Source: Curtobacterium sp. MCSS17_007
Lineage (GTDB): Bacteria > Actinomycetota > Actinomycetes > Actinomycetales > Microbacteriaceae
NCBI RefSeq assembly: GCF_003234175.2
Contig: NZ_CP126257.1
Span: 2,666,001-2,730,000, forward strand
Length of the DNA stretch: 64,000 bases
Direction of reading: 5' to 3'
Part shown: positions 20,467 through 27,812 of the stretch, one piece after another
How the letters are laid out: every line of letters begins with the position of its first letter
How positions within the stretch are numbered: position 1 is the stretch's first letter
Program-made: the position numbers and the translations under genes
Notes under the pieces: model-generated
What the model saw: the letters and a program-made list of their open reading frames with translations, nothing else
The model's database searches: none
What the model was told of the DNA's origin: nothing

Positions 20467-23400
20467 GTGAACACCTCTCCCTTCGGTCTGTACGACCCTG
20501 CCCACGAGTCGAGCGACTGCGGCGTCGGCTTCATCACCCGACTCGACGGCACCCCGAGCCACGACGTCATCGTCCGCGGTGACGAAGCGCTCTGCGCGAT
20601 CCCCCACCGCGGCGGCAAGTCGGCAGAGGGCGTCGGCGACGGCGCGGGCGTGAGCATCGACCTGTCCGTGGAGTTCTTCAGCGCGATCACCGGCGAGCCG
20701 CTGGTCGCCGGCCACTTCGGCGTCGCGAACTGCTTCGTGCCGACCGACGCCGACGACCGCGCCGCCGCGGAACAGACCGTGACCGCGGCGATCGCGCACG
20801 AGGGCTTCGAGCTCCTGCTCGTGCGCGACGTGCCGGTGGACCACTCCGTCGCCCGCCCCGAGGCCGAGCAGTACCAGCTGCCGATCGTGCAGTGGGTCTT
20901 CCGGGCGCCCTCGGACTGGTCCCGCACGGACGTCGACGCGGCCGCGAACCGTGCCCTGCTCGCCGTCGAGGCCGTCTCGTACGCGCAGGCCGCCGAGCAG
21001 CACGCCGAGCACGCCGCCCTGTACCCGCTGTCGCTCAGTGCACGGACGCAGATCCTCAAGGGCCGCCTGAACTCGGGCGAGGTGATCGGCTACTTCACCG
21101 ACCTGCGGGACCCGCGGCACTCCGTCCGCACGCTCTACTTCCACACCCGCTTCTCGACGAACACCGAGCCGCACCCGACGATGGCGCAGCCGTTCCGCCT
21201 GATGGCGCACAACGGCGAGCTCAACACGGACCGGAAGAACCGGCTGTCGGACGAGGCGCTCGCGGCCGCCCGGACCCGCAGCATCGTGCGGCCCCCGGGG
21301 CAGTCGGACTCGAGCCGGCTCGACCAGACGCTGCAGAGCCGCGTGTTCGACGACGGGCTCGAGATCGTCGAGGCCGTGGTCTCGCTCATGCCCCCGGCGT
21401 GGGAGAACGACCGCACGCTCACCCCGGACGTCCGGGACATGCTCGAGTACTTCTCGCTGTACGAGGAGAAGAACGACGGGCCCGCCGCGGTGATCTTCAG
21501 CGACGGCGACGTCGTGGGTGCCCGGCTCGACCGCCTGGGCCTGCGCCCGCTGCGCACCGTGCAGACCGCCGAGTACCTGATGGTGGCGTCCGAGGCCGGT
21601 CAGGTCACGTTCCCCGCCGACGAGGTCGTGCACCGCGGCCGCATCGAGGCCGGCGGCATGCTCGTCGTCGACCACCGCACCGGCACGGTGATGCGCACCG
21701 ACGACGTCCTCCGGATGCTCGCTGCTCGTCGGGACTACGCGACCCTGCTCGACGCCGCCCGCGTGCACCTCGACGACCTGCCCGCGCCCGACTACGACCG
21801 CGGCACGAGCACCCTCGGCTACGACGGCGACCTGTCGCTCGCGGGCCGCTACGTCGCGTACTCGCTGAACCAGGAGAGCTTCCGGTTCATGCTCGATCCG
21901 ATGCTCGCCAACGGGTCCGAGCGGATCTCGGCGATGGGCTACGGCAACGCCGTCAACGCGTTGAGCGACACCGAGGGCGGCATGGCGAAGTACTTCTCGC
22001 AACGCTTCGCCCAGGTGACGAACCCACCGCTCGACTCGATCCGCGAGGCCGACGGCATGTCGATGCGCGTCGCCCTCGGGGCCAAGCCGGACGGCACCGG
22101 CAGCACGAGCCGCCAGATCGTCGTGGACTCCCCCGTGCTCGGGCACCTGGACATGGTCCGCCTGCGTGACCAGACGATCGTGCCGCTCGAGCGCTTCGAC
22201 ATGCTCTACGTGCCGGTCGTCGGCGACGAGCAGGCGAACGCCGAGGCGGTGCGCACCGCGACCGAGCGACTCGCCGAGGCCGTCGTGGCCTTCGCCGAGC
22301 GTCAGGGCGGGATCGCGGTCCTGACCGACCGCTCGGTGTCGTCGACGCACGCGCCCCTCCCCGTGATCCTCGCCGTCGCCGCCGTCAACCAGCGACTCAT
22401 CGAGACCGGTCTGCGCCTGCGGGTGTCCGTGGTCGCCGAGTCCGGTCAGCTGCCATCGTCACACCACGTGGCCACTGCCCTGGGCTTCGGCGCCTCGGCT
22501 GTGTACAGCTTGTCCGCCCGGCTCCGTGCGGAGGAGAAGTACCCCGCCGCCCCCGCTCCCGCGGGCGAGCTCACCGAGACCGACGCCGCGCTCGAGCGCT
22601 TCCGCAAGGCCGCCGAGAAGGCTCTGGCGAAGACGATGGGCCGCGTGGGTCTGTGCACCGCGGAGAGCTACATCGGCGGCGAGTTCTTCGAGCCGAACTA
22701 CCTCGACACCGGGGACGACCTGTTCGCCCGGGTCTTCCCGCACATGGACGCCCCGGTCGGCGGCGTGGGCTTCGCCCGCATCGCCCAGGCCGCGACGGAG
22801 TGGCACGAGCGCGCCCGGTCCGTGGCGACCGAGGGACAGATCCCCCTGCTGGGCCTGTTCAAGGAACGGTCCGACGGCGCGGGGCACTCGTTCGGCGTCG
22901 CCAGCGTCCGCGGCTTCGGCGGCATGACCGAGGAGCGCCCGGCCTTCGAGCGTTCCGGCGACTCGGACGCCCTGCGCCTGCTCACGCTCGGGCAGCTCGA
23001 CGACGCCTTCGGCATCTCCGACACCGCGTACCGGAACACCGGCTACGACCGGCTCAGCGACGCCGAGATCGACGCCCACCGGATCACCCCGGGCTACGTC
23101 ACGTTCCTGCAGACCACGCACGACGAGCGCTCCCGCCGTCCCGCCGCCCTGCGCGACGTGCTCGCCCTGCCCGCCGACGTCACCGGCATCGACACGGCTG
23201 AGGACTTCGCCCGCGAGCTCGGCCGCTTCTCGACCACCGGCAACGCGAGCATCACGGTGCGCGGGCTGTCCGGCTCACGTCCGGCGACGGGCGACGACGA
23301 GCAGCCGGGAGGCCCGGTCCGGTTCGACCTGCGCCTCACCTCGGCGGGGTCCACGGGTGCACTGCGCCACCGCGCCCTCGCGGACGGCGTCGCGCTCCTG

Positions 23401-26025: not shown

Positions 26026-27812
26026 GCACCCTGCCCCCGACGGGCTCGCTGATCCCGGTCGACGCCCCGTTCTCCGCCGCGCAGGAGTCCTGGCTCGCCG
26101 GCTTCATCGCGGGCATCGCGGCCGCCGGCAAGCGGTCGGCGGCACCCGCGCCGACGACGACGATCGACGTGCTCTTCGGCACGCAGACGGGCAACGCGGA
26201 GTTCCTCGCCGACGAGCTCGTCGCCGGCGCGGTGGCGCGCGGGCTCGGTGGGCGTGCCACCCCGCTCGACGCCGTGACAACCGAGCAGCTGGCCGCGATG
26301 TCGCACGTGCTCGTGGTCACCTCGACGTACGGCGAGGGCGAGATGCCCGACAACGCCGGCCTGTTCTGGGACGCCATCCAGGCGGCCACGGTCCCCCGGC
26401 TCGAGGGGCTGCAGTACGCGGTCCTCGGGCTCGGGGACACGAGCTACGACGAGTTCTGCCAGGCCGGCAAGCTGCTCGACACCCGCTTCGAGCAGCTCGG
26501 CGCGACCAGGATCCACGATCGCGTCGACTGCGACGTCGACTTCGAGGACCCTGCCGCCCTGTGGACCGATGCAGTCCTCGACCGGCTGGCGGCAGAGGCC
26601 GGCGCGACCGGCGGTGGCGGCGCGACCACCGGTTCCAGCGCGACCACGGGTGGTGCCGGGGCCGGCGGGACGGGCGCGGGCCGTGCCTCCCGACCGGGCG
26701 CGCAGTGGAACAAGCGCACGCCGTACGCGTCGCGCCTCGTCGAGAACCGACTGCTCTCGTCGCCGCGCAGCGCGAAGGAGATCCGGCACTACGAGTTCGA
26801 CCTCGGCGACTCCGGCATCGAGTACACCGCCGGTGACGCACTGGCCGTCGTGCCGCGGAACGACGAGGTCTTCGTCGCCGAGCTGCTCGAGCAGGTGGGC
26901 GCCGACGGATCCGAGGAGTTCGACGGGCGACCGGTGGCCGAGGTGCTCCGGGTCGACCGCGAGATCCGCACGCCGTCGAAGGACCTCGTCGCCGACCTCG
27001 TGCAGCGCGCCCCGTCGAGCGAGCTGGCCGCGGTCGTCGCGCACGGCGACAAGCACGAGCTCGACCGCTGGCTCTGGGGTCGTGACGTGATCGACCTGCT
27101 GCGCGACGCCGGCCCCGCCGCACCGGGCCTCGACGAGCTGCTGCCGAACCTCCGTCCGCTGCAGGCGCGGCAGTACTCGATCTCGTCGAGTCCGCTCGCG
27201 CACCCCTCCCGGATCCACCTGACCGTGGCGTCCGTCCGGTACGGCGACCCGCACCGGATGCACGCGGGCGTGGCGTCGACGTTCCTCGCCGACCGGGTGG
27301 CGCCCGACGGCACGGTCGACGTGTACCTGCAGCCGAACGCGGCGTTCGGGGTGCCTGCCGACCAGGACGCCCCGATGGTCATGATCGGGCCGGGGACGGG
27401 CATCGCTCCGTTCCGTGGGTTCCTGCACGAGCGCGCGGCCTCCGGCGCGACCGGCCGGAACTGGCTGTTCTTCGGCGACCAGCACCGCGACACGGACTTC
27501 GTGTACGAGGACGAGCTGACGGGCATGCAGGAGCAGGGCGTGCTCGACCGCCTCGACCTGGCGTTCTCGCGCGACCAGGCCGAGAAGGTCTACGTGCAGA
27601 CCCGGATGCTCGAACGGTCCGCGGAGCTGTACGCCTGGCTCGAGGAGGGGGCGCACGTGTACGTGTGCGGCGACGCATCGCGCATGGCGAAGGACGTCGA
27701 GGCGGCGCTCCTGCAGGTCATCCGCACCGGCCGCGGGCGGGACGAGGACGACGCGCAGGCGTACCTGGCGGACCTCCGACGGGCGAAGCGGTACGTGCGC
27801 GACGTGTACTGA
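26022..27812 (+). CDS. NADPH diflavin reductase (CysJ-like), coupled to gltB
   Basis: 596 residues. A short helical start (15-34) precedes a flavodoxin/FMN domain (IDVLFGTQTGNAEFLADEL about 48-66; TSTYGEGEMPDNA; LGLGDTSYDEF). A Gly/Thr/Ala linker (about 195-228) overlaps a GGGAGGC half-repeat. The ferredoxin-reductase-like part has ARQYSISSS for FAD, GPGTGIAPFRGFL and VYVCGDASRMAKDVE for NADPH, and a Tyr C-terminus. It should move electrons NADPH to FAD to FMN to a partner. Annotated relatives are called sulfite reductase alpha, but no SiR hemoprotein is nearby; the GTGA overlap makes the glutamate synthase the likely partner (inference). Confidence 0.85.
   Translation: MSTLPPTGSLIPVDAPFSAAQESWLAGFIAGIAAAGKRSAAPAPTTTIDVLFGTQTGNAEFLADELVAGAVARGLGGRATPLDAVTTEQLAAMSHVLVVTSTYGEGEMPDNAGLFWDAIQAATVPRLEGLQYAVLGLGDTSYDEFCQAGKLLDTRFEQLGATRIHDRVDCDVDFEDPAALWTDAVLDRLAAEAGATGGGGATTGSSATTGGAGAGGTGAGRASRPGAQWNKRTPYASRLVENRLLSSPRSAKEIRHYEFDLGDSGIEYTAGDALAVVPRNDEVFVAELLEQVGADGSEEFDGRPVAEVLRVDREIRTPSKDLVADLVQRAPSSELAAVVAHGDKHELDRWLWGRDVIDLLRDAGPAAPGLDELLPNLRPLQARQYSISSSPLAHPSRIHLTVASVRYGDPHRMHAGVASTFLADRVAPDGTVDVYLQPNAAFGVPADQDAPMVMIGPGTGIAPFRGFLHERAASGATGRNWLFFGDQHRDTDFVYEDELTGMQEQGVLDRLDLAFSRDQAEKVYVQTRMLERSAELYAWLEEGAHVYVCGDASRMAKDVEAALLQVIRTGRGRDEDDAQAYLADLRRAKRYVRDVY

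Follow-up and report, generated by a model that had tools for sequence, protein, structure and literature searches.

A divergent glutamate synthase large chain encoded with a diflavin reductase: a probable GltD-independent glutamate synthase in Curtobacterium and other bacteria

The gene pair at the locus

A stretch of 64,000 nucleotides from Curtobacterium sp. MCSS17_007 (contig NZ_CP126257.1, positions 2,666,001 to 2,730,000 of the forward strand), called the window in the following, carries two overlapping genes that are the subject of this study. The first encodes a divergent large chain of glutamate synthase (GOGAT), here named GltB2, and the second a CysJ-type reductase with motifs for NADPH, flavin adenine dinucleotide (FAD) and flavin mononucleotide (FMN). 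The host genome is a single contig of 3.31 Mb. An earlier sequence-only reading had described a GltB-like protein of 1852 amino acids (aa) whose stop overlaps the start of a diflavin reductase of 596 aa, and the coordinates and domains were confirmed. The features of the pair, in window positions, are:

20467..26025, plus strand: coding sequence of GltB2 (1852 aa), the divergent large chain of a glutamate synthase, from a GTG start to the TGA stop at 26023-26025
20518..20520, plus strand: codon of Cys18 (in CGVGF), the expected N-terminal nucleophile, at least 97% conserved in an alignment of 78 sequences
20518..21741, plus strand: class II glutaminase domain PF00310, residues 18-425
21850..22692, plus strand: central domain PF04898, residues 462-742
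23458..24432, plus strand: FMN/synthase domain PF01645, residues 998-1322
24286..24318, plus strand: presumed [3Fe-4S] site, C1274-x5-C1280-x3-C1284
24781..25275, plus strand: GXGXG beta-helix domain PF01493, residues 1439-1603
25432..26022, plus strand: C-terminal extension, approx. residues 1656-1852, all-helical by prediction
26022..26025, plus strand: GTGA overlap of the GltB2 stop and the reductase start
26022..27812, plus strand: coding sequence of the diflavin reductase, CysJ-type NADPH-FAD-FMN, 596 aa, GTG start, TGA stop at 27810-27812
26169..26540, plus strand: flavodoxin (FMN) domain
26712..27284, plus strand: FAD-binding domain with the motif RQYSISSS
27381..27701, plus strand: NADPH-binding domain with the motif SRDQAEKVYVQ

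In four GltB2 homologues, an ATG stands at the aligned start position. Profile searches assigned GATase_2, Glu_syn_central, Glu_synthase and GXGXG domains to GltB2, which is thus a complete four-domain large chain. The alignment showed that the glutaminase motifs CGVGF, HRG, NGELNT and SDSS are retained as well as the synthase motifs IKQ-ASGRFG, QGAKPGEGGQLP, SPPPHHD-YSIEDL and GGTGA. The latter presumably surround FMN and 2-oxoglutarate and the former serve the glutaminase, roles which we take from the structural literature. The protein shares approx. 34% identity with the canonical GltB of its own genome over residues 7-814 and approx. 42% over residues 985-1633. It scored 1028.5 against the NCBIfam gltB equivalog and stayed below the cut-off of 1047, as did two GltB2 relatives with 1040.2 and 1037.1, while the canonical GltB of the same genome reached 1624.8.

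Two traits that the sequence-only reading did not mention set GltB2 apart. The cysteines of the cluster site are spaced x5, x3 in 80 of 81 GltB2 readings, the remaining one being a fragment without the motif, versus x5, x4 in all 30 canonical GltB proteins compared. The C-terminal extension is missing from the canonical GltB of the same genome and could therefore be used as a tag for GltB2. Its comparison with the PDB gave no informative fold match; it is probably a docking domain for the reductase. A long insertion (residues 813-990, window approx. 22900-23440) separates the central from the synthase domain; it is common to Streptomyces GltB2 and shorter in two aligned Gordonia-type sequences.

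In a FastTree phylogeny built on the synthase domain, the midpoint root separated 24 sequences of GltB2 from 17 of canonical GltB, with a support of 1.0 for the canonical node and 0.457 for the GltB2 node. Synthase-domain identity between Curtobacterium and Streptomyces was 0.895 for GltB2 and 0.726 for canonical GltB; the respective values were 0.781 and 0.615 for Agrobacterium and 0.758 and 0.731 for Rhodococcus. The excess of GltB2 identity to Streptomyces and Agrobacterium fits either horizontal transfer or slower change.

The reductase chain contains flavodoxin, FAD_binding_1 and NAD_binding_1 domains in a profile search, i.e. the architecture of a diflavin reductase, and its best sequence match in the PDB was the CysJ flavoprotein of sulfite reductase. 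It scored 573.3 against the cysJ equivalog TIGR01931 and thus fell below the cut-off of 668.15 together with five relatives (573.8-641.7). It exceeded the cut-off of 432 of PRK06214, 'sulfite reductase subunit alpha', with 464.6 (456.7-499.3 for the five relatives).

Distribution and genomic context

Named relatives of the pair were collected in a scan of GTDB species genomes, from which the best 80 of 124 relatives were kept. These loci fall into ten groups including a few unclassified or kindred records. Eight groups are actinobacterial, namely, Gordonia (10), Rhodococcus (8), Mycobacteriaceae (18), Tsukamurella (3), Corynebacterium (2), Leucobacter (1), Curtobacterium (8, one of them a Microbacteriaceae record) and Streptomyces (8), and two are alphaproteobacterial, namely, Rhizobiaceae (14) and Rhodobacterales with kin (8). 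A diflavin reductase follows immediately 3' of GltB2 in all 80 loci of both phyla, and a gltD match was found within none of them. The FMN and FAD motifs are present in 80/80 and the NADPH motif in 78/80 of these reductases. An overlap of four bases is possible in 44/80 relatives when a script picks the start codon closest to the GltB2 stop. In a control, 29 of 30 loci of canonical GltB from these genomes had gltD within 1.5 kb of the part encoding the synthase domain.

The neighbourhood survey proposed along with the sequence-only reading gave the same picture in the genus of the window, where the reductase directly follows GltB2 in 30/30 loci with flanks, drawn from 46 genomes having GltB2, and in 4/4 loci of a second genus (that of genome G023, taken as Streptomyces). 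Of 396 genomes sampled across the phylum, four gave a match to the C-terminal extension (the host genome, two of another genus and one partial match of 40 residues). Within the window's genus it was detected in 46 of 60 genomes, the host genome included, and within the G023 genus in 4 of 199. Both genes occurred in 46 of the 60 genomes, neither in 13 and the reductase alone in one (47 reductases in total). This last genome (G418) is 73% complete and its reductase reading begins at contig base 3 with residue 164, so that the GltB2 side lies off the contig. The combination of adjacency and all-or-none occurrence is, judged from these sequences, beyond chance. Nine plasmid records matched the extension, and the reductase adjoins in the four that were viewed with annotation; a fifth record carries no annotation at this place.

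The GltB2 readings of three records are broken, namely, L064 (short open frame), L052 (fragment) and G421 (internal stop), which may reflect sequencing error or decay. In G421, a genome of 65% completeness, GltB2 and the reductase are each split into two readings.

The sequence-only reading had noted neither gltD nor a sulfite reductase hemoprotein nearby. The only GltD-type Fer4_20 domain of the host genome lies beside canonical gltB, and this canonical pair of adjoining gltB (1535 aa) and gltD (485 aa) is approx. 0.9 Mb away. The NIR_SIR domain of the hemoprotein CysI, present in 11 of 14 control genomes, had no match in the host genome, and in the genus it was detected in only 2 of 60 genomes, both lacking the pair. 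Since the host genome possesses canonical gltBD and no NIR_SIR match, the pair would be a second GOGAT of this cell. No PF00208 dehydrogenase was found in the host genome; other glutamate dehydrogenase families were not searched.

Among 46 named relatives' genomes with the pair, GltB2 was the only GOGAT found in three: Streptomyces sp. GQFP (a chromosome record), Leucobacter weissii (a draft) and a Rhodobacterales metagenome-assembled genome of 2.6 Mb that is perhaps incomplete. In none of the three was a Fer4_20 domain of GltD type found, which was present in three controls, and all three have PF00208 matches. Some NIR_SIR protein occurs in 40 of the 46 genomes.

Promoter and third gene

Upstream regions of approx. 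330 bases were searched for iron boxes with a matrix derived from 12 published Streptomyces sites of DmdR1 (Table 1 of PMC7174319) and a threshold of at least 10 bits. Candidate boxes of DtxR/IdeR type were located upstream of 40 out of 47 pairs from six actinobacterial groups: Gordonia 9/9, Rhodococcus 7/7, Mycobacteriaceae 13/18, Streptomyces 7/8, Tsukamurella 3/3 and Corynebacterium 1/2. L052 and L064 were left out of the 47 as they have no full-length reading; L096 and L098 were also unscored. Elsewhere in the same loci (approx. 760 kb), three sites of at least 10 bits were found, all in Tsukamurella loci, and of 20 actinobacterial genomes, chosen by us from the 46 searched, one passed the threshold upstream of canonical gltB. 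A plain consensus count pointed the same way, with a mean of 13.6 of 19 for GltB2 versus 11.5 (Mann-Whitney P 2e-7), in rows that are not independent; a first-order Markov null gave approx. 10.

At the window's own copy, two promoter features were noted:

20316..20345, plus strand: candidate promoter TTGCAC-N18-TAGCAT, picked by eye, with the palindrome GGTATACC at 20326-20333 in its spacer
20339..20357, plus strand: weak DtxR-type site of 1.8 bits, second best in the 64-kb window and unconvincing alone

Across all eight loci of the Curtobacterium group, the highest-scoring weak match falls on the same promoter spot, ranking 1-3 of approx. 16,600 positions. These sites score between -3.0 and 6.9, below the threshold, and overlap the candidate -10 box. 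The seven related promoters compared (six from Curtobacterium and one from a Microbacteriaceae record) all contain the palindrome GGTATACC, which occurs once in the window with 0.05 copies expected; it is possibly an operator for some regulator.

A gene for a HemS/ChuX-like protein directly follows the reductase on the same strand in 41/80 loci, its match starting within 125 bases of the reductase end. It was found in Gordonia (10/10), Rhodococcus (6/8), Mycobacteriaceae (10/18), Streptomyces (8/8), Tsukamurella (3/3) and Rhodobacterales with kin (4/8). One of the 39 loci without it, L096, ends inside the reductase. Four of five third-gene proteins scanned contain PF05171, the Ketogulonicigenium member having no Pfam match. 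On a Ketogulonicigenium vulgare plasmid, downstream of the pair come the HemS-like gene and an AraC regulator, and also a siderophore receptor of the TonB-dependent class together with genes of siderophore uptake; no siderophore genes were present in the other three annotated plasmid neighbourhoods.

At one locus (L012:2235-6230 in genome G288, which belongs to one genus with G298, a genome with a locus matching Gordonia L049), the HemS/ChuX-like gene is followed by a second, flavodoxin-less FAD/NADPH reductase that shares 48% identity with the reductase domain of the pair's enzyme. The two are possibly a haem-handling duo. Several HemS/ChuX-like proteins have a short N-terminal cysteine cluster (L056:10550-11614 with C-x5-C-x-C, L058, L063 and L099).

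Downstream of the pair in the window, minus-strand open reading frames at 28906-34628 resemble, by eye only, a mevalonate pathway cluster with HMG-CoA synthase, HMG-CoA reductase, mevalonate-type kinases and a decarboxylase.

Discussion

The pair is read here as an NADPH-dependent GOGAT of a distinct type that is driven by its diflavin reductase and needs approx. 3 instead of 11 Fe, to which we assign a rough probability of 0.75. Coupling of GltB2 to the reductase in place of GltD is well supported by the comparison of genomes, because the two genes adjoin in all 80 loci, are present or absent together, occur in a genus nearly free of NIR_SIR and are the only GOGAT found in three genomes in which no GltD was found. 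That the reductase takes the place of GltD, as the sequence-only reading had proposed, is supported as far as this coupling is concerned; it does not hold for the cell as a whole, which keeps a full gltBD elsewhere. A complete gltBD together with an orphan cysI had been named as what would speak against the proposal. The former was found in the host genome, the latter was not.

We infer that both proteins form a complex in which NADPH would be oxidised at the FAD of the reductase and electrons would pass singly via its FMN to the cluster of GltB2, expected to be [3Fe-4S], and from there to the FMN of GltB2. This FMN would reduce 2-iminoglutarate made from 2-oxoglutarate and glutamine-derived ammonia, with the helical C-terminal extension probably docking the reductase. 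GltD with its two [4Fe-4S] clusters would be dispensable. If the three cysteines hold a [3Fe-4S] cluster, the two-gene system would need 3 Fe, and the gain per protomer would be an economy of iron (approx. 3 rather than 11 Fe). At low iron, the operon would probably be switched on via a repressor of DtxR/IdeR/DmdR type in several actinobacterial genera. A GOGAT with flavins in place of two [4Fe-4S] clusters fits such iron economy, and a role of iron seems well supported for Gordonia, Rhodococcus, Streptomyces and Tsukamurella as well as for most of the Mycobacteriaceae group.

Several observations weigh against parts of this reading. The 80 loci are related and therefore cannot be counted as independent events. 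A canonical-grade GltB is kept by the host genome and by 43 of the 46 named relatives' genomes, so that the pair is rarely the sole GOGAT. Boxes are missing from 5/18 Mycobacteriaceae-group, 1/8 Streptomyces and 1/2 Corynebacterium pairs, no site above the threshold was found in the Curtobacterium group (0/8), Leucobacter (0/1) or Rhizobiaceae (0/13), and only 1/7 loci of Rhodobacterales and kin has one. The third gene was not found at Curtobacterium, Leucobacter and Rhizobiaceae loci, nor at those of Corynebacterium. Since Curtobacterium has neither a site above the threshold nor a HemS-like gene, the iron reading is not extended to the window's copy. The HemS-like protein could, moreover, be a second customer of the reductase. 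In Mycobacterium sp. 141 (G672), canonical gltB has a strong box match of 24.7 bits (L166) while the pair has none (0.5 bits, L097); iron control may have been swapped between the two isozymes there.

Alternatively, the reductase might serve another acceptor, such as the HemS/ChuX-like protein or a sulfite reductase, with GltB2 drawing on ferredoxin and the genes being merely co-regulated. Haem breakdown requires a reductant, and the HemS/ChuX-like gene stands directly behind the reductase in about half of the loci. The enzyme is also CysJ-like enough to pass the 'sulfite reductase subunit alpha' cut-off, and most of the relatives' genomes encode some NIR_SIR protein. However, 39/80 loci were found without the HemS-like gene while GltB2 is present in every one, NIR_SIR is absent from the host genome and from 58/60 genomes of the genus, and the reductase occurs without GltB2 once in 60 genomes, at a contig edge. 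As the 80 loci were retrieved via GltB2, reductases without it elsewhere would escape notice. On balance, another acceptor is considered unlikely.

Even less probable is a function of GltB2 as a glutamine-dependent reductive aminase for another 2-oxo acid in special metabolism. Its score just below the gltB cut-off and the canonical GltB alongside in most genomes would agree with such a function. Against it, the synthase-domain motifs presumed to surround FMN and 2-oxoglutarate are retained, GltB2 is the sole GOGAT found in three genomes, though all of these have a PF00208 match, and apart from the HemS-like gene no widely conserved biosynthetic neighbours were seen. That GltB2 uses the canonical GltD in trans, with the reductase as an accessory, is very improbable despite the gltD of the host genome, as a GltD-type domain was not detected in three genomes with GltB2 and as its cluster region and C-terminus are unlike those of canonical GltB.

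The diflavin-driven GOGAT may be part of a wider picture, for which we see even odds. It would be a third donor class of GOGAT, i.e. an iron-sparing isozyme with a reductase for GltD that spread among Actinomycetota and Alphaproteobacteria, probably in part horizontally. In many genera it would be derepressed at low iron by a DtxR-family regulator together with a haem-handling protein and would keep up ammonia assimilation when the GltBD with 11 Fe cannot be built. In the parts of PMC8097209 that concern this point, GltBD carries one [3Fe-4S] and two [4Fe-4S] clusters, and the electron sources given for glutamate synthases are a GltD-type subunit or domain, or ferredoxin. Low iron lowers the ordinary glutamate synthase of Caulobacter according to PMC3751524. 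An iron-sparing small RNA of Staphylococcus has been proposed to target the mRNA of gltB2, a different gene of the same name (PMC9410917).

No description of the GltB2-reductase pair was found in the full-text literature of PubMed Central by title and abstract, subscription papers lying outside this search. Annotated records call GltB2 a 'glutamate synthase-related protein' and the reductase 'sulfite reductase subunit alpha', names by which the system is hidden. Glutamate synthase has a central place in nitrogen assimilation. If the reading is right, a CysJ-type donor adds a route of electron entry to it, the annotation of these two neighbours changes in many genomes, and GOGAT activity under iron scarcity would be accounted for.

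Comparison with known systems

Like GltBD of the Azospirillum type, the pair has glutaminase, central, FMN/synthase and beta-helix domains as well as a three-cysteine cluster site, and NADPH is the likely donor. It differs in having a diflavin reductase instead of GltD, in the spacing C-x5-C-x3-C versus C-x5-C-x4-C and in the helical C-terminal extension of approx. 200 aa. With the ferredoxin-dependent glutamate synthase of plants and cyanobacteria it shares a GltB-type chain without GltD; however, its operon encodes a dedicated two-flavin NADPH reductase, and free ferredoxin is not implied.

The reductase resembles CysJ of the CysJI complex in domain order and in its FMN, FAD and NADPH motifs, and a simple pattern recognised a CysJ-like N-terminal segment in the reductases of 42/80 relatives. 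Unlike CysJ, it remains below the cysJ equivalog cut-off, lacks a CysI in its genome and has GltB2 as operon partner. The replacement of ferredoxin by flavodoxin at low iron is a known phenomenon. The pair is similar in that flavins would stand in for Fe-S clusters and that candidate iron-responsive promoters exist in several genera, but what it would exchange is an entire Fe-S subunit of an enzyme central to nitrogen metabolism and not a soluble carrier.

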